Shown piece by piece: positions 1,599 to 9,858 of a DNA stretch of 64,000 nucleotides (positions are counted from its first letter, which is position 1; each line of letters begins with the position of its first letter). The stretch covers positions 1 to 64,000 of the forward strand of contig JAQBZB010000003.1 of NCBI GenBank assembly GCA_027622275.1, in the 5' to 3' direction. Under the pieces are notes generated by a model. That model was not told the origin of the DNA. It did no database searches and saw nothing but the letters and a program-made list of their open reading frames with translations. The stretch is from Planctomycetota bacterium (GTDB lineage Bacteria; Planctomycetota; Planctomycetia; Pirellulales; Pirellulaceae). Made by a program: the position numbers and the translations under genes.

Positions 1599-2996
1599 TC
1601 ACTTCGCTCCGACACAATACACGTTGCGAGTGCCGGCCAGGAATAGCCTACTACCCGCAACGGCGGCGGAGGCGTGATTCGGATCGCCGAGGTCATTGAT
1701 CGCCAGGACTTTGAAGTCGTCGCCAGATTGGGCGACATAGCTGACCCCGGCCGTGGCGAAATACAAACGGCCGTTGGCGTCGGCGATGGGACTGGCCCAG
1801 GTGCTGGTCAGTCGATCGAGCCGTTCAGCGAACACCTGCTTGCCGTCTTCAGCGCGCCAGCACTTCAATACATTTGGCCGATGCAGGCGATAGACCAGCT
1901 TGCCGACGATGATCGGCGAGCCGATGCCTTCGGGAATTTGATCGATCCGCCATTTGATGTGCGATTTCGTGACGTCGCCCGAACCGGTCGGATCGATCGC
2001 GACACCCGGTCCGCCGCGTCCGTTGTCGCAATAGACGATCCCCGCGCCGAACGCCGCCGAAGCCGCTTCGCCGCCGCCGCGACACCACCACAGCCGTTTG
2101 CCATCGATTGGATCAAAACTCTGCACGCCTTCGTCCGTTTCCCCACTGCCAGATGCGACCACCACCAGTTGCGGCTTGCCCGCAACTTCGATCAGCGCAG
2201 GCGTGCTGTGAGCAAATCCGGTTCGCGGCAGAGGCGTCTCCCATTTCACCGCTCCATCCGTTTTGTTGTAGGCGATGATTTTCGAATCGCTTTTGTTGGA
2301 CATCGCACAAAGCATCAAGACCGTGTCTTGAAAGAGCACCGGGCTGCTGCCGATCGTCACGTCGAACGAATGCGGCGTGATTTCGTTTCGCCAAACGACG
2401 TTGCCGTCGAAGTCGATCGCCGCCATCACGGACGAACCGAACACAACGTACACCAGTTTTCCACCGGTCGCCGGTGTGGGCGCGGCGTATCCGCCGCCAG
2501 GGCCGCTGCGGAAATCAGTCCGCAGCCAGGGGCCAGGTTCCACGGACGTGTCCCACAGACGCTTTCCGTCCGCCGCGCGATAGCACAGCACGTGGTGTTC
2601 CGGGATAACTTTCGCGCGATCTTGCACTGACTCATCCCAACGCGCGGTGCAGACGAACACTCGCTCGCCCCAGACGATCGGGCTGGCATGCCCTTCGCCA
2701 ACCAGCGGCGAATTCCACAACACGTTCTCGGCATCGGCCCCGCCCCAAGTGATCGGCAAATCTGTCTGCTGCGAATAACCTAACCCCGTCGGCCCACGAA
2801 ACCCCGGCCACTCTTCGCCCCCGACGACCGAGCCGATAAGCAAGGCGATGCAAAATGCAATCGGCAGGCCGCATGCGGTTAGGACTGGCCGAAAAACAAG
2901 GGTCGCCTGTCGCCCCGCGCAAGTGCGTTCTTTCGCGGAGCGAAAGGCGACAAAACAGAAAGTTGTTGTTTGCTCGGTCCTGACAAATGCTGTCAT
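1599..2996 (-). CDS. Exported PQQ-like beta-propeller repeat protein
   Basis: A 465-residue protein that opens, after the signal segment, with EEWPGFRGPTGLGYS, the usual first blade of planctomycete PQQ-binding-like outer-membrane proteins. It continues with repeated 'VLCYRAADGKRLWDT', 'IAYNKTDGAVKWETP', 'SFDPIDGKRLWWC' and 'LKCWRAEDGKQVFAE' blades, each with a W/Y-rich strand and A-x-D-G turn. No PQQ-dependent dehydrogenase active-site set is apparent, so an extracytoplasmic scaffold or binding role is likelier than catalysis. ATG 2996 was preferred over an in-frame codon at 3044 because it shortens an already long n-region. Odd point: about 20 residues between the start and the hydrophobic core are the translation of a palindromic intergenic repeat (2930-2946). 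Confidence 0.82.
   Translation of the reverse strand: MTAFVRTEQTTTFCFVAFRSAKERTCAGRQATLVFRPVLTACGLPIAFCIALLIGSVVGGEEWPGFRGPTGLGYSQQTDLPITWGGADAENVLWNSPLVGEGHASPIVWGERVFVCTARWDESVQDRAKVIPEHHVLCYRAADGKRLWDTSVEPGPWLRTDFRSGPGGGYAAPTPATGGKLVYVVFGSSVMAAIDFDGNVVWRNEITPHSFDVTIGSSPVLFQDTVLMLCAMSNKSDSKIIAYNKTDGAVKWETPLPRTGFAHSTPALIEVAGKPQLVVVASGSGETDEGVQSFDPIDGKRLWWCRGGGEAASAAFGAGIVYCDNGRGGPGVAIDPTGSGDVTKSHIKWRIDQIPEGIGSPIIVGKLVYRLHRPNVLKCWRAEDGKQVFAERLDRLTSTWASPIADANGRLYFATAGVSYVAQSGDDFKVLAINDLGDPNHASAAVAGSRLFLAGTRNVYCVGAK
2930..2946. repeat. TTTCGC/GCGAAA hairpin inside the 5' end of a gene
   Basis: A perfect 7-bp inverted repeat, CTTTCGC (2930-2936) and GCGAAAG (2940-2946), with loop GGA. The same core recurs at 5689-5734 and 14276-14298, so this is one member of a dispersed palindromic family. 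This copy lies between the start codon and the signal-peptide core of the PQQ-propeller gene. Confidence 0.7.
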
Positions 2997-3531
2997 GTTT
3001 CGTTGCTCGTGAACGAGTGAAAAGCTATTCGATGTTTGGACCATCGTGAGAATCGCAGCAAAATGATGAACGGCACAAAGATGAGTTGCACAAAGATTTT
3101 TCCCGCAGTGATTTTTCCCGCGATGATCCTGCTTCCGGCTTCGTCGTGTTCACTTTGATCGTCGAAACATTGTAGCAGCCCTTCAAAGCTGCTGCGCGGT
3201 TCGCGAATTCGCCCAAGCATGATGGCCCGTCATGGAAATCTGGCGCGCGTCAATGCGTCCAAGGTTGTGCAATTCCTCCGAAAGCTTCTCCCCTGAGTCA
3301 TCGGCCTACTGCTAGATACCAATTCAAACTCAATGGCGATCAAGTGATGAAAGGCTGCGTTTTCACGGTAGTCCTTCGTTCCTGGACCCCCAGTAGTTCG
3401 CCTGGAAGTCGAGACGTATGTTAGTGCGGACAAACGTGACGGACGCCGACTCGCTTTGGTTTGGCGATCATATGAATCGACCTCGGGATGTGTTTTTATC
3501 CTTCGTTGCACCTTTCCAATAACGCCCCACT
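2997..3531. other. Divergent intergenic region with short imperfect direct repeats
   Basis: About 535 bp between the divergent PQQ-propeller and dehydrogenase genes. It holds two copies of GCACAAAGAT (3073-3082, 3088-3097) followed by two copies of GATTTTTCCCGC (3095-3106, 3110-3121), an AT-rich block unlike the surrounding GC-rich DNA. No convincing reading frame or sigma-70 promoter pair was found in the rest. Confidence 0.45.
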
Positions 3532-4629
3532 ATGCAAACTGCGATTGCCGCACGTACCGGTTCAACGGTTCCCGAGTTGGTTGAGATTCCCTGTCCGCCG
3601 CCACCGGGAACAGGCGGCTGTGACGATATCCTGTGCCGCACGATTGAACTGGGAATTTGCGGTACGGATCGAGAGATTCTGCACTCGGCCAACCCGTGGA
3701 CTCCGCCGGGCAGCCCGTTTCTAGTGCTCGGTCACGAATGCATCGCGCGCGTGGAAGCGATTGGCGACGCGGTGTCCGATTGGCAAGTAGGCGATCTGGT
3801 AGTTCCCGCCGTTCGCCGCAGCTTGCCGGGTCAAACGCGCCGGCTGGATTACTTGCCGCTGGGAAAGTTCACCGAGCGAGGAATCTGGTCGGAACATGGT
3901 TTTAGCGCGCCGCGATGGCTCGATAAACCTCAACACTTGTTTCGAGTTCCCGCTGAGATCGCCGACATTGCGGTCTTCACCGAACCGCTCGCCGTGGCAG
4001 AGAAGGGGGTCAATGAAGCACTGGTGTTACAGCAGGCTCGTCTCGGCCAGGACATCTGGCAAACCATTCGGCCACGCGTGCTGGTGACCGGCATGGGGCC
4101 GATTGGATTCGCCGCGGCGCTCGCGTGTTTGGTTCGAGGCTGGAGTGTGACCATGTTTGGCCGCGATCGGGCGGACTCCTTTCGCGCGACGCTCGCTGGA
4201 CGATTCGGCGTTCAGTATTGGTCGGCGGCTGACGGTTGCTTCGACTTGCCGGATGTGGAACAAGACGGTTTCGATCTGGTGCTGGAATGCACCGGCAGCG
4301 ACGACGTCTTGGTCAGTGCCGCGGCAGCACTCCGTTCCTGTGGAGTCATGGTTTGGCTCGGCAGCACGCGCGTCCCTCAACCCGCAAGTCTTAACGTGGC
4401 GAGAATGATGCGGCAGGCATTGCTTTGCAATCATTTGCATGTGGGAACCGTCAACGCGGCTCCGCGGGATTTCCGTGACGCTCTTTCACACCTGGCGCAG
4501 CTCAAGCAGACGTATGCCCACGAATTGCAGTCGCTCATCACGGCGCGGGTCACGTTAAGTGAATCGCTCTGGCACTACGAACATCGCCAACCGCAGGGCG
4601 TCAAGACCGTGATTGAATACCCGGTATGA
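3532..4629 (+). CDS. Medium-chain (zinc) dehydrogenase, glucose-1-dehydrogenase-like
   Basis: A 365-residue NAD(P)-dependent alcohol dehydrogenase of the MDR superfamily. The N-terminal catalytic domain carries ELGICGTDREIL (about residues 40-51), the signature of the sugar/glucose dehydrogenase branch, with the catalytic-zinc Cys. GHECIARVEAIGD supplies the histidine and glutamate. The Rossmann part has VLVTGMGPIGFAAALA and a short beta-strand followed by FGRDRADS. The four structural-zinc cysteines usual between 'VVPAVRR' and 'TERGI' are missing here (RRSLPGQTRRLDYLP), so the lobe is presumably zinc-free. It precedes the SGNH-like gene on the same strand. Oxidation of an aldose is inferred from the branch only. 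Confidence 0.78.
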   Translation: MQTAIAARTGSTVPELVEIPCPPPPGTGGCDDILCRTIELGICGTDREILHSANPWTPPGSPFLVLGHECIARVEAIGDAVSDWQVGDLVVPAVRRSLPGQTRRLDYLPLGKFTERGIWSEHGFSAPRWLDKPQHLFRVPAEIADIAVFTEPLAVAEKGVNEALVLQQARLGQDIWQTIRPRVLVTGMGPIGFAAALACLVRGWSVTMFGRDRADSFRATLAGRFGVQYWSAADGCFDLPDVEQDGFDLVLECTGSDDVLVSAAAALRSCGVMVWLGSTRVPQPASLNVARMMRQALLCNHLHVGTVNAAPRDFRDALSHLAQLKQTYAHELQSLITARVTLSESLWHYEHRQPQGVKTVIEYPV

Positions 4630-8194: not shown

Positions 8195-8387
8195 CAGATA
8201 TCCTCTTTGGGAGAAAATGCATATCGGCTTTCATTCTATCATTAGCGACCACGATCACCGTCCATTCACGGCAACTTTGGCCGATGATTTTGATTGACGC
8301 CAAACGGGTGCCACTTGTGATTAGGAATTGAACCCGCGAGAATTCAAGGTTCGCTCCCAACAACAAAAACTTGTAGAGGCTTTAAAA

Positions 8388-9653
8388 ATGAAATTCTCGC
8401 GATCCTGGCAATGTGCTTTCACGGTCGTCATTGTTTCCTTGTCCTTGTTTGTTCCCACGAGGGCCAATGCAGCGGACGACGAGTTTGCCGCCATGGTCAA
8501 GCAGCGGGTGCAAGACTGGCAGCCGACGAAAGACGAGAGGTTGTTGGATCAAGTTGGTTGGGCCAGCGACTTGGTGGAAGCCCGGCGGCTGGCGAAGAAG
8601 CACCAGCGGCCGTTGTTCGTATTCACCTACAGCGGCTCGACGACGCGGGCCAATGCCATCGCGCTGCAACGTTGCTGAGGCGGCGCGGCCGCGCTGAGGG
8701 CGAGTTCGCTCTCCAATAAGAAGGTCATCGAGTTGCTCAACGCTCATTTCGTCTCCGTGTATGTCGATGGCACCTACCTGCAAGCCAATGCCGACACCGA
8801 GGCAGATGAGTTGGCGGCTTATCGCGAGTTGTTCGCCGAATTGAATCGAGCCAACGGCCAGCGGCAGAAGGCGGGCCAGCCACAGCTTTCGACCGGCACG
8901 GTGCATGCCTATGTGTTTGCAGCGGATGGACGAGCGCTCGATTCGCGACACGTCGCTCACGCGGGACCGGCGAGCGTGATTGAGATGCTCGAAACTGCAG
9001 TCAAGACGTTGCAGGTGGCCGCCGGCCAGCCGATCGTCGCGCCGTCGTCCCAATCGCCGCGTCCAGACTGTGCCGACGACGCGCTGGCCTTGCACTTGAC
9101 GGCACGTTACCTCGTTCCGCGCGGCTCCCCCGAGGCCCGCCGCGACGTCGCTGGTGAACTCGTGCCGCTCGACGCAACCCGGTTGGGCGGCGAACGATCG
9201 GGGCAATGGTCCGCGCTGCCGTCGGAAGACTGGTATGTGCTCGAACGCAATGAGTGGACGCGGCTGCTACCGAACGCTCGCGTCGCCGCCGGCGACTCGT
9301 GGCAGGTTGATCCAAATGTTGCCGAGACGCTGCTGACGCGGTTCTATCCAACCACCGAACTGAACGACTTGAGCAAGAATCGCTTGGACGAGCGGTCGCT
9401 GAAACTGACGGCGATCTCGGTCGATGATGATCGCGTCCGCGCCCGCATCGACGGCGTCTTGAAGATGAAGCACCCGTTTTACCCCGGCCGCGACGACGAC
9501 AACTTTGTGGAGGCGACGATCATCGGCCTGATCGAATTTGATCCAGCGAAGCCGCATATCGATTCGCTACAAATCGTCACCGACGGCGCGACCTACGGCG
9601 GCAGTTCCAATCGGTCTCAACCGTTCGGTGTCGCGTTGCAGATCGTTCCCTGA
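8388..9653 (+). CDS. Secreted thioredoxin-like protein with an in-frame TGA, candidate selenoprotein
   Basis: From ATG 8388 the frame encodes a signal peptide ending near RANAADD, then a thioredoxin-like start (HQRPLFVFTYSGSTTRANA). It reaches Arg-Cys-TGA at 8676-8678 (codon 97), and runs on open for 324 codons to the TGA at 9651. Residues on both sides form one domain: after the TGA come GGAAALRASSLSNKKVIELL and NAHFVSVYVDGTY, the helix and strand that normally follow the redox motif. Reading TGA as selenocysteine gives a Cys-Sec pair and a 421-residue protein. A stem-loop at 8696-8713 fits a bacterial SECIS. The C-terminal ~230 residues (from about RYLVPRGSPEARRD) are a separate unassigned domain. 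The alternative is a nonsense mutation, since other genes nearby are broken. Confidence 0.68.
8696..8713 (+). promoter_or_regulatory. Candidate bacterial SECIS stem-loop
   Basis: Bases 8696-8702 (GAGGGCG) pair with 8707-8713 (CGCTCTC) in seven pairs, one of them G-U, around the loop AGUU (8703-8706). The G in the second loop position is 26 nt after the TGA. This fits the known bacterial rule of a short stem shortly downstream of the UGA with a G among the first two loop bases. Confidence 0.55.
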
Positions 9654-9687: not shown

Positions 9688-9858
9688 ATGAAATTCAAGT
9701 TCCGCAAGACACGATTGCCTTGTCTCGTGGCGGCGCTTGCCGCGTTATGCCGGATTATTCATCAGCCGCCTGGCGCTAGCCTGCGGTTCTCGCGAACTTC
9801 GAGAGAACCGCACGCTATCGCGTGGCGGCTGATTTGCGCGGTGTTTTGGGCAAGCTAG
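9688..9858 (+). pseudogene. 5' fragment of a secreted-protein gene cut by a palindromic element
   Basis: A GGAGGATT site precedes ATG 9688 by a normal distance. The first ~20 codons (MKFKFRKTRLPCLVAALAAL) look like a signal peptide. The frame then enters the palindromic element at 9750 and ends at 9858 with residues that are only a translation of the repeat. The mature part of the original protein is gone from this location. Confidence 0.5.

Follow-up and report, generated by a model that had tools for sequence, protein, structure and literature searches.

A thioredoxin-like planctomycete gene with an in-frame TGA very likely decoded as selenocysteine

The gene and its signals

The window, that is, the whole stretch of 64,000 nucleotides analysed here (positions 1 to 64,000 of contig JAQBZB010000003.1, Planctomycetota bacterium, assembly GCA_027622275.1), contains a gene whose features are collected in Table 1. 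Its translation runs for 96 codons up to an in-frame TGA at codon 97, continues for 324 codons and finishes at a terminal TGA (9651-9653), TGA being thus used twice, internally and as the gene's own stop. An earlier note, made from sequence alone, had claimed precisely 96 and 324 open codons around a single TGA placed after a Cys codon, and this held exactly on translation. The residues after the internal TGA are GGAAALRASSLSNKKVIELL, and the motif around residue 97 is QRCUGGA. The protein is likely exported, as inferred from a signal peptide that was only read by eye, and the extracytoplasmic location given in the earlier note rests on this same reading. The gene is followed by an interspersed repeat, some 96 bp long and palindromic in part, of which at least 40 copies with 95-99% identity are present in the genome (only 40 candidates were scored), some of them matched on both strands.

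Table 1. Coordinates of the features identified at the locus.
Feature	Position	Strand	Remarks and basis
Shine-Dalgarno-like site GAGG	8376..8379	+	8 nt 5' of the ATG; read from the sequence
Antisense ORF	8382..9206	-	274 aa; overlaps the 5' part of the predicted selenoprotein gene
Predicted selenoprotein gene	8388..9653	+	421 residues including Sec97; translation and homologues
Probable signal peptide MKFSRSWQCAFTVVIVSLSLFVPTRANA	8388..8471	+	Residues 1-28, ends in ANA; read by eye, without a predictor
Thioredoxin-fold domain	8535..9023	+	About residues 50-212; AlphaFold2 model and structural re-alignment
Cys96 codon TGC	8673..8675	+	Adjoins the Sec codon; translation
TGA codon very likely read as selenocysteine (residue 97)	8676..8678	+	TGA kept in orthologues and other members; structural alignment to an N-terminal Cys
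bSECIS-like hairpin GAGGGCG-AGUU-CGCUCUC	8696..8713	+	17 nt 3' of the UGA; loop from 24 nt past the UGA
Arg104 codon AGG	8697..8699	+	Invariant Arg, 7 residues past Sec; rare Arg codon within the hairpin stem
C-terminal beta-rich domain	9075..9650	+	About residues 230-421; common to close orthologues
Interspersed repeat	9750..9845		3' of the gene

The TGA codon in orthologues and in the wider family

When the window protein was searched against 392 genomes of the phylum, few matches resulted, nearly all of them holding one in-frame TGA. Full-length homologues from independent genomes, with 36-45% overall identity to the window protein, aligned with it on both sides of the TGA. At codon 97, TGA was found in orthologues from three other planctomycete genomes, namely L036, L041/L027 (both on one contig of a Planctomycetota MAG) and L042 (from a Fimbriiglobus MAG), and the motif GRC-U-GG is present in each of them. 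Only three loci were matched when the genome contigs were scanned.

Two further homologues carry Asp in place of Sec, L040 (from a Gemmataceae MAG) with ARC-D-GT and L026 with GRT-D-GG, and each of them is one uninterrupted ORF across the Sec site. In the thioredoxin-domain tree, which was based on a short alignment and had many unresolved forks, both fell within the TGA-bearing clade, grouped with the window protein. As the Asp forms are continuous ORFs, the halves on either side of the window TGA form one protein; this continuity, together with the alignment of homologues on both sides, shows that the open frame of 8388-9653 is not fortuitous. L026 (679-2547) and L040 (about 2020-4146) are fusions in which the ECF sigma domains Sigma70_r2 and Sigma70_r4_2 are followed by a hydrophobic stretch and then by the thioredoxin-like and C-terminal domains. 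Their architecture resembles that of a membrane-anchored sigma factor with an extracytoplasmic sensor. In genome G200, L026 is the immediate upstream neighbour of L036, which carries TGA.

With a profile made from the thioredoxin-like domain (A5), matches at E<=1e-7 were obtained in 267 of the 392 genomes; of the best matches, about 155, almost every one had exactly one in-frame TGA. The column of Sec (model position 56) was occupied, among 79 distinct aligned members, by TGA in 73, Asp in three, Cys in two and Ser in one. This 73/79 ratio is biased because TGA-bearing members served to build the profile and the loci came from the highest-ranking matches. The Cys forms (L086 and L087, in genomes G141 and G009) belong to the wider family and lie outside the closest orthologues. 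The residue at codon 97 of homologues, which the earlier note had proposed as a check, is thus TGA in the orthologues; most other members likewise have TGA at the aligned position, and Cys is rare. The conservation of TGA is shown by this comparison. TGA-carrying members occur in at least 89 of the 392 genomes, a lower bound as it refers to listed matches only.

The source genome (G000) has five members, all with TGA: the window gene, L010, L011, L089 and L090. The motifs of L089 (G000:C496) and L090 (G000:C59) are RC-U-VFAG and GCT-U-GNG, respectively. About a dozen different TGA members were seen in another planctomycete MAG, G280 (L048, L039, L051-L054, L108-L110 and others). In a set of 34 members, Trp58, Sec97 and Arg104 were invariant. 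The Cys directly before Sec varied across the wider family (GCTU, AAGU; GC-x-U or no Cys) and, as a consequence, a selenylsulfide partner at this place cannot be general.

Recoding hairpin and selenocysteine machinery

The earlier note had given as known that selenocysteine is signalled by a stem-loop just downstream of the TGA. This held for the window gene, and the hairpin found (Table 1) has bSECIS geometry; its loop carries G at the second position, which fulfils the requirement of a G within the first two. The folding of the 50 nt that follow the window TGA did not stand out from dinucleotide shuffles (z -0.84) and, for this reason, a hairpin search under constraints was used, with controls that preserved the codons or came from the same gene. 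The window hairpin exceeded synonymous shuffles (p=0.004 and 0.010 in two runs) and was better than 98% of the other in-frame positions in the gene. The same search found no hairpin at the terminal TGA of the window gene.

Hairpins were also present in 72 of the 73 TGA members, with offsets clustering at 18-19 and 23-24 nt. The combined synonymous-shuffle p of the TGA members was about 4e-19, with the reservation that these sequences are related and not independent; singly, 25 of the 73 reached p<0.05 and many fell short, the hairpin of L042 being weak (p about 0.2-0.27). The internal TGAs gave a median of -8.75 kcal/mol versus -1.25 kcal/mol for the terminal TGAs of the same genes (n=24, p=6e-4), and in none of the Asp, Cys and Ser members did the hairpin beat synonymous shuffles (p 0.18-1.0). 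Pairing was register-specific in the larger xUNN class (73% paired versus 27-40% when slid), which also showed 44 double-change cells versus 16-29 in slid controls. In the C-U class, to which the window gene belongs, fixed-register covariation was weak (69% paired versus 47-60% slid). The invariant Arg of the stem was encoded by AGA or AGG in 20 of 72 TGA members, and in 10 of 22 of the C-U class, while these codons account for 6% of the Arg codons in the same genes. This bias is as expected if RNA structure dictates the choice of codon. The existence of the recoding signal is shown at the level of comparison.

The presence of selA, selB, selC (tRNA-Sec) and selD in the genome was another check proposed beforehand, and all four were detected in the G000 assembly (9.78 Mb, 555 contigs). 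The tRNA-Sec reached 67 bits against a cut-off of 47, and ARAGORN called the same gene tRNA-SeC with anticodon tca. The selA (568 bits) and selB (344 bits) genes, located on the same contig, and selD (276 bits) were likewise over their cut-offs, so that the machinery is also shown by comparison. The selD match (L024, G000:C340:23790-24704) lies inside an open frame of 770 aa, the model having 311 positions, and is possibly a fusion.

Across the phylum, selA was over the cut-off in 86 of the 89 genomes with TGA members versus 153 of the 303 others (p=3e-18). The list of genomes was transcribed by hand and, as the genomes are related, this p is too small. TGA members without a selA match were found in G214 and G264, whose assemblies are 67 and 91% complete, and incompleteness may be the cause of this absence. 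The search for selA in the 392 genomes gave no match in those of the Cys and Ser members (G141, G009 and G174). The genome of L042 has selA over the cut-off, that of L040 does not, and two of the three Asp- or Ser-form genomes checked are without it.

Fold, relationship to known families and interpretation

An AlphaFold2 model built from four sequences (mean pLDDT 75) presented a beta-rich C-terminal domain, to which no known fold was assigned, and a thioredoxin domain that spans both sides of the TGA; the statement of the earlier note that the residues past the TGA continue the same fold was a guess, and it held. Most of the thioredoxin domain had pLDDT > 70, and the active-site loop (residues 83-99) was below 50. 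The Cys96-Sec97 loop being poorly modelled, the model does not establish its geometry. No structure was matched by Foldseek at E<=0.001, and the assignment to thioredoxin came from the VIA re-alignment. The Z values of the model against solved structures were 11.2 for AGR3 (3ph9), 11.1 for DsbH (2ju5) and 9.2 for the C-terminal domain of DsbD (2fwe). In profile alignments, the Sec column corresponded to the first Cys of CHWC (3ira, 7tkv), CPYC (2lst) and CQYS (AGR3), so that Sec takes the place of the nucleophilic Cys. The classical CxxC spacing is absent, the window protein having UGGA with Ala three residues after Sec.

No Pfam or NCBIfam (release 20) model covers the window protein. The models nearest to the family are those of the VPGUxxT family thioredoxin-like (seleno)protein types 1 and 2 (NF041382 and NF041383), which is OS_HP5 in Table 1 of a 2026 inventory of 119 prokaryotic selenoprotein families (PMC13188914). 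Both groups have a thioredoxin-like domain and a Sec without a second Cys of the CxxC type. However, the similarity is distant and restricted to a few members (best E 1.3e-4, for L036), with scores of about 21 bits versus cut-offs of 350 and 275; the family motif is RC-U-GG or GCx-U-NN and not VPGUxxT, and the window protein did not match these models at E 1. The Trx7/PDZ domain-containing (seleno)protein (NF041199), included in the same inventory, is also a thioredoxin-like selenoprotein and is characterised by a CxxU motif and a PDZ domain (PMC13188914); L031 matched it weakly (E 0.057) and the window protein did not match. Thioredoxin_7 and Thioredox_DsbH (PF13899 and PF03190; solved 3ira, 2lst and AGR2/AGR3) share the fold, and the N-terminal Cys of their CxxC or CxxS aligns with the Sec of the family, but theirs use Cys. 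The window protein reaches neither model, and the scores of related members lie under the gathering threshold. Animal thioredoxin reductase ends in GCUG, an adjacent Cys-Sec pair on the flexible tail of an FAD enzyme. The pair is alike, but that of the window protein is placed at the active-site helix of a thioredoxin fold, and homology is not claimed.

Selenoproteins as such were already known in planctomycetes (PMC4807772). No thioredoxin family with C-U-GG or U-NN was found in the searched parts of the text and Table 1 of PMC13188914, nor any description of this family in the literature searched, although its mention in the supplementary candidate table of PMC4807772 is not excluded. We hold as real that the window gene belongs to a larger family, uncatalogued in the protein catalogues searched.

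Several explanations not requiring selenocysteine were considered. A recent nonsense mutation, or a sequencing error, in an otherwise intact gene could be invoked by the Asp or Ser found at the Sec position of some homologues, and the earlier note had named an unrelated residue there as a refuting sign. That sign was thus seen, yet it does not point to a nonsense mutation, because these forms are continuous ORFs without a convincing hairpin and, in two of the three genomes checked, selA was not over the cut-off. This explanation can be practically discarded, as orthologues from unrelated genomes, and most members of the wider family, have TGA at precisely this place; moreover, other in-frame stops are absent, a hairpin follows the TGA and the Sec machinery is present. 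A general reassignment of TGA to Trp or Gly, with no participation of selenium, would be compatible with an in-frame TGA taken alone. Nevertheless, the window gene itself terminates with TGA, selA is far commoner in genomes with TGA members, two close relatives exchange TGA for Cys and not for Trp or Gly, and the hairpin follows internal and not terminal TGAs, so that it was rejected as highly improbable.

It could also be that the TGA truly terminates a product of 96 residues, and that a separate protein is translated from an internal start such as the TTG at 8733, since a downstream ORF with this start exists. This split gene is highly improbable: the thioredoxin fold crosses the TGA, the Asp homologues are single ORFs, and the frame between the TGA and the TTG is itself conserved (GG..ALRA.SLS). 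Finally, the protein could be a selenoprotein whose domain serves for binding, sensing or metal handling and is not a redox enzyme. The fusion of two Asp-form orthologues behind ECF sigma-factor domains indicates that the fold has uses without redox chemistry, and the partner Cys is not conserved. Against this, the costly Sec is kept at the catalytic position in most members, and we consider this alternative unlikely.

The decoding of the internal UGA as selenocysteine is then very likely on comparative evidence, although the incorporation of selenium is itself inferred and no experiment supports it. In this mechanism, SelB and Sec-tRNA would bind the hairpin inside the coding sequence and Sec would be inserted at UGA97 by the organism's own SelA/SelB/SelD/tRNA-Sec system. 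After export, also inferred, the thioredoxin-like domain would place Sec97 where a CxxC site has its nucleophilic N-terminal Cys. As the second Cys of that site is absent, the adjacent Cys96 would be the probable resolving residue, through a Cys96-Sec97 selenylsulfide whose chemistry is an inference. The protein would most likely be an extracytoplasmic oxidoreductase of thiol/disulfide or peroxide type, with an unknown partner and a substrate that can only be inferred. Regarding the redox selenoprotein claimed in the earlier note, its Sec part is strongly supported by comparison; the redox role is likely but unproven, being deduced from fold and position.

A bolder reading, which we consider likely as a whole, is that planctomycetes hold a large and mostly unannotated superfamily of exported thioredoxin-like selenoproteins, of which a single genome may encode up to about a dozen. 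In this reading, catalysis would usually depend on Sec and not on Cys, with Sec occupying the nucleophilic site and the resolving Cys shifted to directly or two residues before it. In some lineages, the domain, with Asp for Sec, would have become the extracytoplasmic portion of ECF sigma factors anchored in the membrane. That Sec predominates over Cys inverts the usual pattern, and the question of why Sec is used here becomes testable with natural Asp and Cys variants. If correct, the extracytoplasmic use of selenium in this phylum would be far above what is recognised, and hundreds of planctomycete genes would need re-annotation. Annotation routinely mistakes genes of selenoproteins for truncated or broken ones. 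At the window locus, the antisense ORF (Table 1) resembles a shadow frame, and automatic annotation might choose it over the gene split by the TGA.
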